From contig JAENZD010000002.1 of NCBI GenBank assembly GCA_016841445.1, positions 310,001-374,000 of the forward strand: 64,000 nt of DNA, in the 5' to 3' direction. The notes under the pieces were generated by a model. It was given only the letters and a program-made list of their open reading frames with translations, was not told the origin of the DNA and did not search any database. The position numbers and the translations under genes are program-made. This document shows positions 7,279 through 20,205 of this stretch, in pieces. Source of the stretch: Anaerolineaceae bacterium. GTDB taxonomy: Bacteria > Chloroflexota > Anaerolineae > Anaerolineales > Anaerolineaceae. Positions within the stretch are counted from its first letter, which is position 1. Each line of letters begins with the position of its first letter.

Positions 7279-7633
7279 AGAAATATTCCTTTCTGGTATT
7301 AAGGGTTGTTAAGGTGGTTGCTTTTAGATAGCGAGTCAACTGCAGGATCTATCAATTTGTAGAGGCCTCAGTGTACCTGTTTTTTAGGGTTATTCTGGAA
7401 ACAATCCCATTTCTGAGTAATCGTCAGGGATGGTCCTGAGAGATTGGTAAAACCAAGATTTATTATACTGGATGGCGCAAATGAATATCATATTTTCCTT
7501 TTGACATAAAACAGTTAAGAATGCTTTTCGGTGTGAAGTATTAAGCAAATGATTTTACCGATGGGGTTATAATGAAAAATATATTGGATCATCGATGAAA
7601 TAATCCAATTGCTTTCACTTACCGAGGGAAGCT
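7279..7633. other. Divergent intergenic region
   Basis: Lies between two divergent genes. It holds the ribosome binding site of the minus-strand dehydrogenase and possible -10 elements (TATACT at 7464-7469), but no convincing complete promoter. I saw no conserved RNA leader or small ORF with support. Confidence 0.4.
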
Positions 7634-7930
7634 ATGGATATGAACAAGAAATCTCAAGCGGATGAAGAGACCATGAAGGAAAAGCGGTTAGCTGGTTGGG
7701 TCCGCTTAACGGCCGTATTATTTCGGGTTTTGATCATGCTGGGTTTGGTTTCCCTGGCAATCCTTATCATTCTCCTGATCTTTACAAATATTTTTGTTAT
7801 TTGGATACTGGCAATACCTTTAGCTCTGATTTTGATCGGGATTGGCCTTGCCCGACTGGAATTCACTCTTCATGACCGCTTGTATGCTGCTGGACACAAG
7901 AAAACAAATCAGATAGATAAAGAAAAATAA
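7634..7930 (+). CDS. Small two-helix membrane protein, unknown function
   Basis: A 98-residue protein with a charged N-terminal tail (about 28 residues), two adjacent hydrophobic helices (roughly 30-53 and 55-75) and a Lys-rich C-terminal tail. No family is recognised. The start ATG follows GAGGGA at suitable spacing. It sits upstream of the mgtE leader and shares the strand, but a 275-bp gap with its own regulatory structure separates them, so co-transcription is doubtful. Confidence 0.65.
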   Translation: MDMNKKSQADEETMKEKRLAGWVRLTAVLFRVLIMLGLVSLAILIILLIFTNIFVIWILAIPLALILIGIGLARLEFTLHDRLYAAGHKKTNQIDKEK

Positions 7931-8008
7931 ACCAGAAATATTCTTGATAAATTTAAAACACAAGCCCATGAAAGCAAAATTTGATTCAACAAAAATATTT
8001 TTTTTGTG

Positions 8009-8014
8009 TATACT
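8009..8014 (+). promoter_or_regulatory. Putative -10 box of the mgtE leader
   Basis: TATACT lies inside GTATACTTAA (8008-8017), a 10-mer that recurs before two other transcription units in the window (27486, 46417). A weak TTCAAC at 7985-7990 could serve as -35. A start near 8021 would produce a leader of about 185 nt before mgtE. Confidence 0.4.
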
Positions 8015-8060
8015 TAAGATAAGATGAACGATGACGATTTTGTAGGTGATAGATATTTTC

Positions 8061-8175
8061 AAGGTTTTAAAGGTATGCAATTTATGAAAGGATGCCGAAT
8101 GCTTTCATAATTTTGCATTACCTTTTCGGGTTTGCGATTAAGACCTTCACAATATCTACACTGTGAAGGTCTTTT
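8061..8175 (+). promoter_or_regulatory. Candidate riboswitch-like leader of mgtE
   Basis: Elements, read by eye. (1) A long imperfect hairpin, 8069-8090 with 8102-8125. (2) Its loop CCGAA (8095-8099) is complementary to TTCGG (8125-8129), a possible pseudoknot. (3) AAGGTTTT (8061-8068) can pair with AAGACCTT (8140-8147), closing the domain. (4) The same AAGACCTT forms the 5' arm of a terminator. Closing the domain would therefore block the terminator. It does not show the conserved start of the M-box Mg2+ riboswitch. The ligand, if any, is unknown; Mg2+ is the obvious guess from the downstream gene. Confidence 0.6.
8140..8175 (+). terminator. Leader terminator (attenuator) before mgtE
   Basis: AAGACCTTCACA (8140-8151) pairs perfectly over 12 bp with TGTGAAGGTCTT (8162-8173), followed by TT and a T-rich stretch. 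It ends 30 bp before the mgtE start, so it is positioned as a premature terminator within the mgtE leader. Confidence 0.85.
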
Positions 8176-8205
8176 GTATTAATCCTATTTATTTTGGAGG
8201 TTATC

Positions 8206-9564
8206 ATGGCAATGGAAGATGTCATCAGTGTTGATGAAATCATTGAAAAGGTCCGCTTAGCGCTTTCAGAAGGCCATTGGGATGAGGCTATCGCTGTTCT
8301 TGAACCCTTAAGACGTTCAGATCAAGCAGAGGTATTTTCGGACCTGCCTCCAGCCCAGCAGCAAGAAATCCTGCCTTTTTTGACACCTGAAAATTCAGCC
8401 GATATCTTCGAAGAGATGGAAGATGAAGATGTTGTTGATATCGCCAACCGGATGCGTACAGACTCTTTGGTTGAGATCGTCAATGAAATGGAACCTGATG
8501 AAGCCGCAGACTTATTAGGGGATATTCCCTCTGCGCAAGCTGAAGAAGTCCTGGCAAAAATCGACGAATCTGAAGACGTCCGGGCCTTACTTTCCCATGC
8601 AGATGAGTCCGCAGGCGGCGTTATGACCGCCCTGGATGTTCGCATTAGCAAGGACATGACCGTGGATGAGGCGATCTGGCATCTCCGGCATATGACACCA
8701 GAATCTGAGCAAATTTATTACCTGTTTGTAGAAGATAAAGGCAGTCACCTGGTTGGAGTGGTCTCACTCCGTGATCTTGTAATTGCTAAACCCGGTACGC
8801 TGATCTCGTCGATTATGGACCCCGATCCGCTGTATTCTGAGGTTGGCGCCGATCAGGAAGAAGCCGCCAAACTGATGCAGCGCTATGACTTGCTAGCTCT
8901 GCCAGTTGTGGATGAAGAGCATCAATTGGTTGGTATGATCACCTACGATGACTTACTGGACGTTTTAGAAGACGAGGCGACGGAGGATATCTACCGCTTA
9001 GGTGGTGTTCCCCGCGAGCAGCCAGCAGATATTGGCGTTGCGTCAGCTATGAAAACACGATTACCGTGGTTGGTCTTGAATTTACTGACGGCACTCATTT
9101 CAGCAGCCGTAATGAGCCTCTTTGAGAATACCATCGCACAAGTCGCGGTTTTAGCAGCATTTTTCCCTATTGTGGCTGGCGTGAGCGGCAGCGCAGCTAC
9201 CCAAACCCTGACCGTCACTGTTCGCGGTCTCGCTTTGGGTGATATTTCACCCAAGGAAGGGATTAAAGCGCTTGGTAGGGAACTTCTGATTGGACTGATC
9301 AATGGGATTTCAATTGGCGTGATCGTTGCGCTGATCGCCCTGGCATGGAAAGGGACGCCATTGTTAGGGTTGGTTACCGGGGCTGCGGTCTTCCTTAACC
9401 TGATCTGTGCCGGGATTGCCGGCGTGATCATGCCATTGTTGATGCACCGGTTGAAACTTGACCCAGCATTAGCCTCTCCCATCCTCGTAACGACCACAAC
9501 AGACACGCTTGGCTATTTTTTCTATTTGGGTTTAGCGACGCTTCTCATCGTGGGATTAACTTAA
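8206..9564 (+). CDS. mgtE: Magnesium transporter MgtE
   Basis: A Mg2+ channel/transporter of about 452 residues. The N-terminal MgtE_N helical domain (roughly 15-120) contains repeats of the type ENSADIFEEMEDEDVV. It is followed by two CBS domains (about 125-255) that sense Mg2+ in this family. The membrane domain (about 280-452) has five hydrophobic helices; the region VSGSAATQT, then VRGLALGD, corresponds to the conserved pore segment. I place the start at ATG 8206, five bases after GGAGG (8196-8200). An upstream in-frame TTG at 8194 overlaps that ribosome binding site and is unlikely. Expression is probably controlled by the structured leader and attenuator just upstream. No terminator is obvious downstream. 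Confidence 0.93.
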   Translation: MAMEDVISVDEIIEKVRLALSEGHWDEAIAVLEPLRRSDQAEVFSDLPPAQQQEILPFLTPENSADIFEEMEDEDVVDIANRMRTDSLVEIVNEMEPDEAADLLGDIPSAQAEEVLAKIDESEDVRALLSHADESAGGVMTALDVRISKDMTVDEAIWHLRHMTPESEQIYYLFVEDKGSHLVGVVSLRDLVIAKPGTLISSIMDPDPLYSEVGADQEEAAKLMQRYDLLALPVVDEEHQLVGMITYDDLLDVLEDEATEDIYRLGGVPREQPADIGVASAMKTRLPWLVLNLLTALISAAVMSLFENTIAQVAVLAAFFPIVAGVSGSAATQTLTVTVRGLALGDISPKEGIKALGRELLIGLINGISIGVIVALIALAWKGTPLLGLVTGAAVFLNLICAGIAGVIMPLLMHRLKLDPALASPILVTTTTDTLGYFFYLGLATLLIVGLT

Positions 9565-9680: not shown

Positions 9681-9708
9681 TTGACATTTTTTGGGGTTAG
9701 ATTATAAT
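9681..9708 (+). promoter_or_regulatory. Consensus promoter of the zinc efflux operon
   Basis: TTGACA (9681-9686) and TATAAT (9703-9708) are separated by 16 bp, a perfect sigma-70-type pair. Transcription would start near 9715, inside the palindromic operator. Confidence 0.85.
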
Positions 9709-9710
9709 AA

Positions 9711-9734
9711 ATATATGAACATATGCTCATATAT
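9711..9734 (+). promoter_or_regulatory. ArsR/SmtB-type operator
   Basis: ATATATGA (9711-9718) and TCATATAT (9727-9734) form a perfect inverted repeat around ACATATGC. The size and the TGAACA-type core resemble the 12-2-12 operators of SmtB, CzrA and CadC repressors. It covers the predicted transcription start, so repressor binding would block initiation. Confidence 0.8.
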
Positions 9735-9747
9735 TCAAGGATAAGAT

Positions 9748-10077
9748 GTGATAGAAACAAAGGGATTAATCCAAATTTTTGATCAGGATATTGCTTCAGA
9801 AGCGGTTTTCCATGATATGGCAGAAATTTTCAAGGCACTGGGTGACCCCACGCGCCTGACCATTCTGGCGCTGCTCTCTACAGGAGAGAAGTGTGTGAAT
9901 GAATTGGCGGATAATCTCGAGGTATCGCAAAGTGGGGTATCACATCAACTGCGGATCCTGCGCAGCATGGACATTGTCCGCTATCGGAAGGAAGGCCGTG
10001 AAGTCTTTTATTCCCTGGCTGATGAGCATGTACAGGATATACTAATCAGGACGGTTGAACACATTTTACATGAATGA
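9748..10077 (+). CDS. ArsR/SmtB-family zinc-responsive repressor
   Basis: A 109-residue winged-helix repressor. The ArsR core is visible: ALGDPTRLTILALL (30-43), NELADNLEVSQSGVSHQL (51-68) as the DNA-recognition helices, and VRYRKEGREVFYSL (77-90) as the wing. The C-terminal helix has D92-x-H94 and H105-x-x-H108. This is exactly the spacing of the alpha-5 zinc site of CzrA (D84, H86, H97, H100). The N-terminal Cys-rich site used for Cd/Pb sensing in CadC is not evident apart from one Cys (C49). Zn2+ or Co2+ is therefore the likely signal. GTG is the start, after AAGGA. It directly precedes the metal ATPase, with a shared promoter and operator. Confidence 0.9.
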   Translation: MIETKGLIQIFDQDIASEAVFHDMAEIFKALGDPTRLTILALLSTGEKCVNELADNLEVSQSGVSHQLRILRSMDIVRYRKEGREVFYSLADEHVQDILIRTVEHILHE

Positions 10078-10092
10078 GGTGTCATTTTATTG

Positions 10093-12273
10093 ATGGTTGA
10101 AAAAACGATAAAAATAACAGGGTTGGATTGTTTGGAGTGCGCCAGGGGGTTGGAGGGTTCGGTCGCTTCATTAACGATGGTTGACGAAGCCAAATTGAAT
10201 TTTTATGACGGGACTTTGACATTCAGAGGAGAAATAGAGGAACGAGAGGTCCTGAAGTTGATCAATAGTTTGGGTTATGGGGTCGCGGACCGGGAAGAAA
10301 ATGCGCTCCTACCAGAAGAAGAGCCAAATGCTTTGCTTGGATTCTGGCGGTATATTATCCAAAGAATAGAAACCCAAATGGCATTGGGGGCGGGTGGGAT
10401 CGTCCTTCTGTCGCTTTTATTTAACCAGCTTGGCTTTCCGGGTTGGTTGACCATCAGCATGCAGATTGGCGCGCTGGTGCTGGCCGGATGGCCAATTGCC
10501 CGCAGCGGCATGGTTAACTTATGGGTCAACCATACCTTCAATATCAATTTCTTAATGACCGTTGCTGGGATTGGTGCGGTAGTGATAGGGGAATATGCAG
10601 AAGCGGCAGCGTTGATCCTTCTGTTTGACCTGGCGGAAGCCCTTGAAGGCTTCACGAATGCTCGCGCCCGTGGTGCACTTTCAAAATTGACATCGCTTAC
10701 ACCAACCCAAGCCATCAGGCTAGTGAATGGCCAGGAGGAACTGGTGCCGGTTGAGAACCTGGCTATCGGCGACCAAATCCTGGTCCGTTCTGGTGAACGT
10801 ATCCCGATAGATGGTGAGATCATTGAAGGACAGAGCGATATCAACCAGGCACCGATCACAGGAGAATCTATCCCGGTTTGGAAAGAACCCGGGAATGAGG
10901 TGTTCAGCGGTACTGTGAACGGCAGCGGCAAGTTGATCATCAGTGTAACTCGCCTGGTGGCAGACAGCACCCTGCACCGTATCATCCAGATGGTAACGGA
11001 AGCACAATCCCGCCAATCCCGCAGCCAGAAATTCATTGATAAATTTGCACAGTATTACACACCAGCCATGGTGCTTCTGGCGGTCTTAGTGGCTGCATTG
11101 CCGCCTTTATTATTTGGTGAACCCTTTTTGAACCCGGGTACCGGCAACAATGGATGGTTATATCGTGCGCTGGCATTATTGGTGATCAGCTGTCCGTGTG
11201 CCCTGGTCATTTCTACACCCGTCACAATGGTTGCCAGCCTGACCAAAGCAGCCCGGGAGGGAATCTTGTTCAAAGGCGGTATTTTTGTTGAGAGCTTATC
11301 CAAGGTGAGCGCTTTTGCATTTGATAAAACAGGTACGCTGACACATGGTGAACCCGAAGTGGTCGCTTGCAGAGACCTGGATCACAATGCAAGTGAATCG
11401 TGTGAATCCTGTAAAGATATGCTGGCGCTGGCATATGCCCTGGAACGGCACAGCACCCATCCCCTTGCGCAGGCGATCATCGCTGAAGCAGAACGGTGCG
11501 GTGTCATTGACCGGTACCCAGCAGCTAAAAACTTGAAGACCCGCGGCGGTTTGGGATTGGAAGGACTGATCGACGGGCGATTGACGACCATTGGCAGCAG
11601 GCGGTTGTTCAGGGAAGAGCATGATGTTCCCCAAATTATTGATCAATGGGTGGATGAGGCAGAGTCTGAAGGAAAGACCGCGATGCTGCTTTGCGATGGT
11701 GATCATGTGCGCGGATTTATTGCCGTGGCGGATACCCCGCGTCAGACGGCTGTAGAAGTGATACGCAATTTGAAGGCGATGGATAAACATACGGTCATGC
11801 TGACGGGTGATAATCATACCGTTGCTGGTGCCGTGAGTCATTCACTGGGGATAGATGACGTTCGTTCTGACCTTTTGCCCGAAGATAAACAAGCAGCCGT
11901 CACTAAATTGAAAGAAGTATTCGGCTCGGTTGCTATGGTTGGGGATGGGATCAACGATGCACCTGCTCTAGCCAGCGCTGACCTGGGGATTGCGATGGGC
12001 GGCAGCGGCAGTGCCCAGGCGATGGAAACTGCCGATATTGTTTTGATGGCAGATGATATCCATAAGCTGCCTTTTGCGGTGAAGCTATCGAAATTTGCTA
12101 ACCGCTTGATCAAGCAGAACATCATTTTCAGCATTAGCAGCAAACTGGCGGTTGCCGTTCTGGCTGTGCTGGGTTATGCGCCCCTCTGGTTAGCTGTTTT
12201 GGCGGATATGGGTGTGTCTTTATTGGTGACGCTGAACGGCATGCGAGCATTGAGGTACCAGGGCGGAAATTGA
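10093..12273 (+). CDS. P1B-2 type Zn/Cd/Pb-exporting ATPase
   Basis: A heavy-metal exporting P-type ATPase of 726 residues. Order of features: an N-terminal metal-binding domain with C13-x-x-C16 (GLDCLEC), about eight membrane helices, the TGES actuator loop (in APITGESIPV), the membrane CPC motif at 367-369, the phosphorylation site D411 in DKTGTLT, the nucleotide-domain HP (STHPLAQAI) and the hinge GDGINDAPAL. In the last helices a Lys (SSKLAV) and DMG (LADMGVS) match the Zn/Cd/Pb (ZntA/CadA) signature rather than the copper type. ATG 10093 is preferred over an overlapping TTG at 10090. It lies 15 bp after the repressor gene and should be induced by zinc excess. Confidence 0.93.
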   Translation: MVEKTIKITGLDCLECARGLEGSVASLTMVDEAKLNFYDGTLTFRGEIEEREVLKLINSLGYGVADREENALLPEEEPNALLGFWRYIIQRIETQMALGAGGIVLLSLLFNQLGFPGWLTISMQIGALVLAGWPIARSGMVNLWVNHTFNINFLMTVAGIGAVVIGEYAEAAALILLFDLAEALEGFTNARARGALSKLTSLTPTQAIRLVNGQEELVPVENLAIGDQILVRSGERIPIDGEIIEGQSDINQAPITGESIPVWKEPGNEVFSGTVNGSGKLIISVTRLVADSTLHRIIQMVTEAQSRQSRSQKFIDKFAQYYTPAMVLLAVLVAALPPLLFGEPFLNPGTGNNGWLYRALALLVISCPCALVISTPVTMVASLTKAAREGILFKGGIFVESLSKVSAFAFDKTGTLTHGEPEVVACRDLDHNASESCESCKDMLALAYALERHSTHPLAQAIIAEAERCGVIDRYPAAKNLKTRGGLGLEGLIDGRLTTIGSRRLFREEHDVPQIIDQWVDEAESEGKTAMLLCDGDHVRGFIAVADTPRQTAVEVIRNLKAMDKHTVMLTGDNHTVAGAVSHSLGIDDVRSDLLPEDKQAAVTKLKEVFGSVAMVGDGINDAPALASADLGIAMGGSGSAQAMETADIVLMADDIHKLPFAVKLSKFANRLIKQNIIFSISSKLAVAVLAVLGYAPLWLAVLADMGVSLLVTLNGMRALRYQGGN

Positions 12274-19249: not shown

Positions 19250-19551
19250 AAATTCTCTGCCAAGAGTCTAACATGTTTTGTTGAAGAAGGCGAATCGATG
19301 TTTTAAGTGAATATCCATTAAAAATCGTTACTTATTGATCTTAGAATACAACCGATATGACACCAAAAGATAATTGCGTGACTAATAAGATCTCTTCTGC
19401 AATCTACGAATAATAAAAGAACCTCATTGCTTTATACCTTAAACTTGGGGAAAGATTAACCCTTTAGATAAAATCCTGCCGCTGAAAGTTGGGTGTCAAA
19501 TCAGCGGCAAGGATCCAATTATTTAGAAAACAACTATGTTTTGCGGCTTGC
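19250..19551. other. Intergenic region upstream of the M23 gene
   Basis: AT-rich. It contains the intrinsic terminator of the ssb operon (19473-19514) and presumably the M23 promoter. Nothing else was recognised. Confidence 0.4.
19473..19514 (-). terminator. Terminator of the ssb-DUF3467-translin operon
   Basis: TGCCGCTGA (19477-19485) pairs with TCAGCGGCA (19501-19509). The stem extends to ATCC/GGAT across a one-base bulge. On the minus strand it is followed by TTTT, matching the end of the minus-strand operon. Confidence 0.8.
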
Positions 19552-20205
19552 CTAACCCTTTTCCAGATGAAAGTCCTTCAACTGGTTGGATAAATCTACA
19601 ATTCTTTTCTCAAGTTCCTGCTGCCTGTAGCTGATGGTGATATCGGCTTGTGTCCGTTCGATGATGCTGCGGGCAATATCTGTTCTGCGGCGCAAGCCGT
19701 AGGTCAGCGCATCAGGAAAATCCATTGTGACCAGTTGGGCGTAAACGTCATCCATAACATCGAGGAGGCGTTCCACTTCTGGAGAATGCCCTTCCCGGAT
19801 GATATCCATGATCCGCCGGCGCAGTTCTCCGACCAGTTCAGACATCCCGTTAAGATAGGTCGCGAATTCGACCTTGAGATCTTCCGGTGAGGGCCAATCC
19901 AGGTTAAGGATGGTTGATACGGTCAGGTGCGCTTCACAATATTCCTTTAACGCATCCTGTGCATACCCGGAGTAATACAGGTCAGGGTCGTTTGATAGGC
20001 CTTTTCGCAGGGATTCTGCCAGTTGATCGGCATCTGCAAGATGCTTGCGTGCTTCCTCTGCATCTTCACGGTGGATGGCGCGGATGGCCAGGGCTGAGTG
20101 ACGCGTCAGATTTCGGCTCTGTGAGAGGGCTTCATCCCTGATTTTATTTTGTCGTTCAAAATGATCTCTTACACGGTCCGCAATTGCTTCTATCTTTTTA
20201 TCCAT
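19552..20205 (-). CDS. Translin-family nucleic-acid-binding protein
   Basis: About 217 residues, largely helical, matching the prokaryotic translin/TRAX family that forms nucleic-acid-binding oligomers. Family-like segments are SGYAQDALKEYCEA (about 86-99), YLNGMSELVGELRRR (about 125-139) and FPDALTYGLRRRTDIARSII (near 175). A heptad-like C-terminal tail (EKRIVDLSNQL) may be a coiled coil. ATG 20205 lies 8 bases after GGAG and is preferred; a GTG at 20211 overlaps the stop of the previous gene. It is the last gene of an operon with ssb and a DUF3467 gene, which supports a role with single-stranded DNA or RNA. Eukaryotic TRAX is an RNase; I could not verify catalytic acids here. Confidence 0.75.
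   Translation of the reverse strand: MDKKIEAIADRVRDHFERQNKIRDEALSQSRNLTRHSALAIRAIHREDAEEARKHLADADQLAESLRKGLSNDPDLYYSGYAQDALKEYCEAHLTVSTILNLDWPSPEDLKVEFATYLNGMSELVGELRRRIMDIIREGHSPEVERLLDVMDDVYAQLVTMDFPDALTYGLRRRTDIARSIIERTQADITISYRQQELEKRIVDLSNQLKDFHLEKG

Follow-up and report, generated by a model that had tools for sequence, protein, structure and literature searches.

A short acidic reading frame before mgtE in an Anaerolineaceae bacterium as a probable Mg2+-responsive leader-peptide attenuator

The enterobacterial leader peptides MgtL and MgtQ are described as sensing Mg2+ through an acidic nascent chain (PMC11282234, PMC8092293, PMC11552253; here and below the available parts of the cited papers are referred to). 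For E. coli MgtL, full translation at high Mg2+ is reported to lead to termination, and drop-off of ribosomes at EPDP at low Mg2+ to expression (PMC11282234). The effect of this intrinsic ribosome destabilisation falls within the first 30 residues (PMC11282234), and bL31 is described as required for MgtL control (PMC11552253). The M-box is known as a transcriptional off-switch in Bacillus (PMC12810186), and the mgtE motif SRC-65-1 is a further candidate regulatory RNA found before mgtE (PMC11109978).

We analyzed the leader of mgtE in an Anaerolineaceae genome of 3.35 Mb (8 contigs). The window, i.e. the whole stretch of 64,000 nucleotides that was analyzed, is part of contig 6. The leader is probably a Mg2+-responsive leader-peptide attenuator which operates via intrinsic ribosome destabilisation. 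It shares with MgtL of mgtA (E. coli, Salmonella) a short acidic or proline-rich ORF, a Mg2+ transporter gene and alternative RNA folds, as far as the available descriptions go (PMC11282234, PMC11552253). By analogy, expression at low Mg2+ through ribosome drop-off would be expected here as well. Unlike MgtL, the leader precedes mgtE and not mgtA, has a near-leaderless start and carries MNDDD instead of EPDP, and termination looks intrinsic rather than Rho-dependent. We propose that it works like MgtL; it is not classed as a member, and common ancestry is not claimed. MgtQ of the Salmonella mgtCBRU operon is similar in that acidic codons start a short ORF governing a Mg2+ transporter gene, but the available part of the source describes it as intergenic, acting on mgtB translation and having no terminator (PMC8092293). 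SRC-65-1 is set apart by its description, which places it in Thioalkalivibrio only, where a stem holds both the ribosome-binding site and the AUG (PMC11109978).

The features of the locus are as follows:

8009 to 8014, plus strand: TATACT, putative -10 box of the leader promoter; all 4 aligned leaders of the genus conserve the TGTGTATACTTA block
8024 to 8110, plus strand: leader ORF of 28 codons plus stop, MNDDDFVGDRYFQGFKGMQFMKGCRMLS; all 5 genomes of the genus in which this mgtE was found have an MNDDD or MNDDE start
8030 to 8038, plus strand: acidic tract, Asp codons 3 to 5, with another Asp at codon 9 (8048 to 8050); differences at third positions only
8045 to 8069, plus strand: predicted 5' strand of the antiterminator (codons 8 to 16), partner 8139 to 8162, from the minimum free energy (MFE) fold; a competing fold is predicted for all 4 leaders of the genus
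8070 to 8124, plus strand: inner hairpin; present here, unconserved by the pair counts of relatives
8140 to 8175, plus strand: intrinsic terminator with a 12-bp stem and a short T tract; the 5' arm and loop of this hairpin double as the 3' strand of the antiterminator; kept by the pair counts of relatives
8196 to 8200, plus strand: GGAGG, ribosome-binding site of mgtE as read from the sequence
8206 to 9564, plus strand: mgtE, Mg2+ transporter of 452 aa; TIGR00400 at 376 bits (cut-off 233), Pfam MgtE, MgtE_N and CBS

Among 16 genomes of the genus that were searched, an mgtE orthologue at at least 75% identity was present in four (the own genome, G010, G011 and G013). In G009 mgtE is broken, the match comprising only residues 257-334 with a stop inside, and the MNDDD leader start is intact. 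The leader of this genome (L006) has a terminator-like hairpin situated within the ORF. The peptides start with MNDDDFVGDRY in the own genome, MNDDDLGSDRY in G010 and G009, MNDDDLAGDRY in G011 and MNDDEPVGDRN in G013. All 16 pairwise differences in codons 1-5 of the same-genus leaders are at third positions, and pN/pS amounts to 0.04 for codons 2-5 and 0.44 for codons 2-12. The product had no match in Pfam. It is highly improbable that the ORF encodes a small functional protein in front of an ordinary terminator: the N-terminus is conserved, but the remaining peptide diverges in length and sequence within the genus.

The leader ATG lies 9 nt after the -10 box, so that the start is near-leaderless, and a -10-like hexamer at equal spacing was also found in other mgtE leaders. 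The putative -35 box TCAACA (7986-7991) is unconserved among the aligned same-genus leaders. Within the own genome ATGAAYGAYGAYGA occurs a single time, at the mgtE leader. When 101 genomes were searched at the DNA level, all hits with E < 0.01 beyond the own genome came from four genomes of the same genus.

Judged by its sequence, the locus has a conserved short ORF before a terminator, as a leader-peptide attenuator would, and acidic or proline-rich residues near the N-terminus (MNDDD..D), as would an MgtL-type sensor. The Asp codon run 5' of the terminator would also suit a classical amino-acid attenuator sensing charged tRNA-Asp. We regard this as very unlikely, since Asp, Glu and Pro interchange between lineages (codon 5 is changed from Asp to Glu in G013), which argues against tRNA-specific attenuation; moreover, mgtE is not a gene of Asp metabolism.

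A first-pass annotation had presented the leader as a candidate new riboswitch class, without mention of the ORF at 8024-8110, which contains the 5' strand of the antiterminator. The terminator hairpin it placed before mgtE was confirmed with 12 of 12 pairs (8140-8151 with 8162-8173), and the antiterminator pairing of AAGGTTTT (8061-8068) with AAGACCTT (8140-8147) with 8 of 8 pairs, one of them G-U. The antiterminator of the MFE structure is longer than these 8 pairs, as 8045-8057 also pair with 8151-8162 and thereby reach into the terminator loop. Folding of the leader (8009-8180) gave -49.3 kcal/mol versus -30.3 +/- 3.4 kcal/mol for shuffled sequences (z -5.6), and 0 of 200 shuffles were as low. 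The T tract of the own leader is short (TTTTGTATT). A transcription-attenuation switch with mutually exclusive stems, as the annotation had suggested, is supported, and the leader matched no Rfam family at gathering score.

The structures of the proposed enclosed domain fared differently. The enclosed long hairpin is present here (8070-8093 with 8099-8124 in the MFE fold), as is the complementarity for a pseudoknot (CCGAA 8095-8099 with TTCGG 8125-8129), but three same-genus relatives keep neither of them. Only 8, 9 and 11 of the 22 hairpin pairs and 2, 3 and 1 of the 5 pseudoknot pairs are retained, counted in one four-sequence alignment which is gappy in these parts. The terminator is kept, with 11 of 12 pairs in each of the three relatives (single alignment). 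A ligand-binding aptamer is not supported, because these relatives keep neither the enclosed domain nor the pseudoknot and the upstream conservation is codon-like. On present evidence, the leader is not a new riboswitch class.

A true riboswitch, in which the leader RNA binds the ion directly and the ORF is incidental, would agree with the stable, mutually exclusive stems; even for mgtA, according to the available part of PMC11552253, it is not entirely settled whether RNA binding or translation is decisive. Given the poor retention of the enclosed structures in three relatives, the codon-like conservation and the missing Rfam match, we nevertheless consider it improbable. The sensor is more likely to be the translating ribosome than a folded RNA, since the -10 box, the start codon and acidic codons that differ only at third positions are what is kept upstream. 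Two weak Rfam matches in the leader, RsaJ (21.8 bits, cut-off 100) and PyrR (20.9 bits, cut-off 54), were taken as chance. Rfam searches of 20 related loci gave 3 matches, all of them animal microRNA families below the cut-off.

The M-box (RF00380), the start of which the first-pass annotation had not seen either, gave no covariance-model match in the window nor in 7600-8500 at E-values up to 10. Under stricter filters, 9 of 199 genomes in this class contained a match and the own genome did not. The M-box precedes mgtE as well, also in one relative of the same class, G298 (M-box at 19546-19715, mgtE match from 19841 on the same contig, C121), whereas no M-box was found and no aptamer seen in the leader analyzed here. 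In this class, mgtE can therefore follow a Mg2+ aptamer or, as we propose, an acidic leader peptide.

Switching was predicted by equilibrium folding, not kinetics, with the ribosome footprint masked codon by codon. For the free leader, the terminator probability was 0.075 in the own genome, 0.086 in G010, 0.166 in G013 and 0.106 in G011, and ranged from 0.01 to 0.17 across the tested 3' ends. It rose to 0.97-0.99 in the four same-genus leaders when the translated part was covered. Dinucleotide shuffling of the upstream part resulted in median terminator probabilities of 0.95-0.98. The observed value was matched by 0 (own), 16 (G010), 13 (G013) and 1 (G011) of 300 dinucleotide shuffles and by 1, 3, 6 and 0 of 300 shuffles of the leader codons, respectively. 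The competition is therefore strong in the own leader and G011, whereas G010 and G013 show no more than a modest one.

The outcome predicted for one ribosome depended on its position. At codons 1-3 the terminator probability was mixed (0.04-0.76). At codons 4-8 the terminator prevailed in the own leader and G011 (at least 0.93), and the antiterminator in G010 and G013 (terminator at most 0.12). The model accordingly needs drop-off and not pausing in two of the four leaders, and it counts against the attenuator that a paused, undropped ribosome would be predicted to terminate there. A ribosome at codons 9-13 gave 0.94-0.99 in 4 of 4 leaders, and one at codons 14-20 mostly favored the terminator as well, with the exceptions of codon 14 in G010 (0.46) and codon 20 in G011 (0.45). 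A lone ribosome at the stop codon left the antiterminator in all four (terminator 0.01 own, 0.03 G010, 0.17 G013, 0.28 G011), so that repression would need trailing ribosomes; one ribosome queued behind it raised the values to 0.96, 0.59, 0.97 and 0.98, respectively. A model with a single ribosome waiting at the stop codon was rejected for the reason that the antiterminator stays open. Overall, ribosomes beyond the acidic tract are predicted to turn mgtE off, and their absence to turn it on.

For the Mg2+-responsive attenuator we infer the following course. Transcription would start a few bases before the ATG of the 28-codon ORF, the product of which begins with MNDDD. With enough Mg2+, ribosomes would clear the acidic tract and cover codons 9 onward, i.e. 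the 5' strand of the antiterminator; with this strand covered, the intrinsic terminator would form and mgtE would be off. At low Mg2+, ribosomes would be destabilised by the acidic nascent chain and would drop off at or soon after the acidic tract, and the freed RNA would form the antiterminator and allow transcription of mgtE. The same attenuator could also respond to a signal other than Mg2+ (e.g. general ribosome or initiation capacity, pH or polyamines), as the predictions show only translation-dependent folding and near-leaderless initiation could itself be the regulated step. This is unlikely in view of the Mg2+ transporter gene downstream, the recurrence of acidic residues and the M-box before mgtE in one relative.

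Acidic leader ORFs recur before other mgtE genes. In total, 155 leaders from genome sequences and 78 from named records were collected (1 of 156 loci with less than 200 nt and 2 of 80 named loci with less than 150 nt were left out), and the 233 leaders were reduced to 198 by removal of duplicates; 100 of the sampled stretches had been chosen by us among the matches listed. The scan for acidic starts required a start codon followed by [DEN][DE] and an ORF of 8-70 codons within 300 nt. Such ORFs were found in 47 of the 198 mgtE leaders (chosen among the matches listed) versus 9 of 198 on the reverse strand; in at least 4 of the 47 loci (L041, L042, L045, L172) the match falls in the end of the preceding gene, and close relatives do not count as independent. 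Control leaders of the class had acidic starts in 1 of 28 corA and 2 of 30 cation-efflux loci, together 3 of 58 (Fisher p 6e-4), with gene starts called automatically at the most upstream in-frame ATG for controls and by alignment for mgtE. Of the control loci, 28 of 30 for corA and all 30 for cation efflux could be used. Applied to the corA leader of the own genome, the scan gave no acidic ORF.

ATG ORFs with at least 4 D/E in residues 2-9 were present in 11 of 155 leaders (including L172, a gene tail), compared with 1 on the reverse strand and a mean of 0.5 in shuffled sequences (20 rounds, never more than 2). When 3 D/E sufficed, the count was 24 of 155 versus 5.2 shuffled and 5 on the reverse strand. 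A peptide-blind test of 211 leaders revealed 12 ATG ORFs located 8-11 nt after a -10-like hexamer, and 1 on the reverse strand. These 12 ORFs had on average 3.0 D/E in residues 2-11 versus 0.86 in 399 other ATG ORFs (Mann-Whitney p 3e-7); four of them belong to this genus and four to the Herpetosiphon group, which lowers the number of independent cases. Among 72 leaders, 13 had a -10 hexamer at a distance of 8-11 nt from the leader ATG, most often 9 nt; these near-leaderless ORFs come from this genus, the Herpetosiphon group and others. The number is no frequency, as the 72 leaders were picked by eye from the set of 198 and 19 more. The distribution is patchy: 4 of 5 sister-genus homologues (L036, L038-L040; 56-59% identity) were without a clear acidic ORF by scan, and the genus has five divergent MgtE copies (L170, L171, L173, L174, L176), of which only L170 matched, with a 10-codon TTG ORF.

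Four kinds of mgtE leader were distinguished, here named (a) to (d). Kind (a), that of this genus, combines MNDDD with a terminator and an antiterminator. Kind (b) has MNTDPD and similar starts, and a terminator-like hairpin follows 22-36 nt past the stop codon in L041, L045, L046, L056, L057 and L061. The hairpin probability in their free RNA is 0.98, 0.98, 0.76, 0.87, 0.62 and 1.00, respectively, which leaves an antiterminator unsupported in most MNTDPD-type relatives. The terminator scan found none in L049, L172, L086, L047 and L052, nor in L037 (MQEELALDPDP), though one is visible there by eye. Kind (c) was gathered in 22 leaders from several Anaerolineae and encodes an MDDxSxxSSKGHxS..ANRI peptide; the leaders were found largely via the first three codons, which are therefore no independent evidence. 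RNAalifold on 17 of the 22 gave one consensus hairpin, located over the ribosome-binding site of mgtE and pointing to translational control. In L105, L101, L108, L112, L145, L152 and others the peptide lies about 130-170 nt before mgtE. Kind (d), MSTDG, belongs to the Herpetosiphon group; in H. geysericola (L219) the hairpin probability is 0.00 in free RNA and 0.96 when covered.

The patchy distribution, the short T tract of the own leader, the shuffles that match the observed value in G010 and G013 and the antiterminator unpredicted in most MNTDPD-type relatives count against the attenuator. As a wider and more tentative possibility, which we hold to be somewhat doubtful, acidic leader peptides may serve throughout the phylum Chloroflexota as Mg2+ sensors for mgtE that arose repeatedly and offer an alternative to the M-box. 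Depending on the lineage, they would then be coupled to an intrinsic terminator or to a hairpin over the mgtE ribosome-binding site, and where the ORF is near-leaderless, initiation by 70S ribosomes may add a second Mg2+-dependent step.

Titles and abstract openings of the open-access literature gave no report of an mgtE leader peptide and, for mgtE with uORF, none on Chloroflexota. Likewise, no open-access report was found on mgtE riboswitches in Chloroflexi or on ribosome destabilization with mgtE. If the attenuator proposed here is true, a further phylum would exploit the ribosome's own Mg2+ dependence, and would do so for a different transporter and with different expression platforms. An independent system lacking a conserved aptamer would allow a direct test of RNA binding versus translation. 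Riboswitch-like leaders should be checked for short ORFs.

Some further observations concern the leaders and their surroundings. The motif AACCGNATN is enriched in mgtE leaders, with 18 of 198 (chosen among the matches listed) versus 2 on the reverse strand, e.g. in L105, L108, L145 and L163. It often encodes NRI of the leader peptide and was also seen by eye in L348 and L358. Directly 5' of the leader, 7634-7930 is a hydrophobic ORF of 98 aa with no match in Pfam or NCBIfam. The region 9681-12273 carries genes for an ArsR-family regulator and a heavy-metal P-type ATPase behind a perfect-consensus promoter (12 of 12 positions). In G010, the sequence 3' of mgtE (L033, before position 1501) contains repeated near-identical copies of a unit which includes GTAGGTCACGCTTCCAGCGTGAC.
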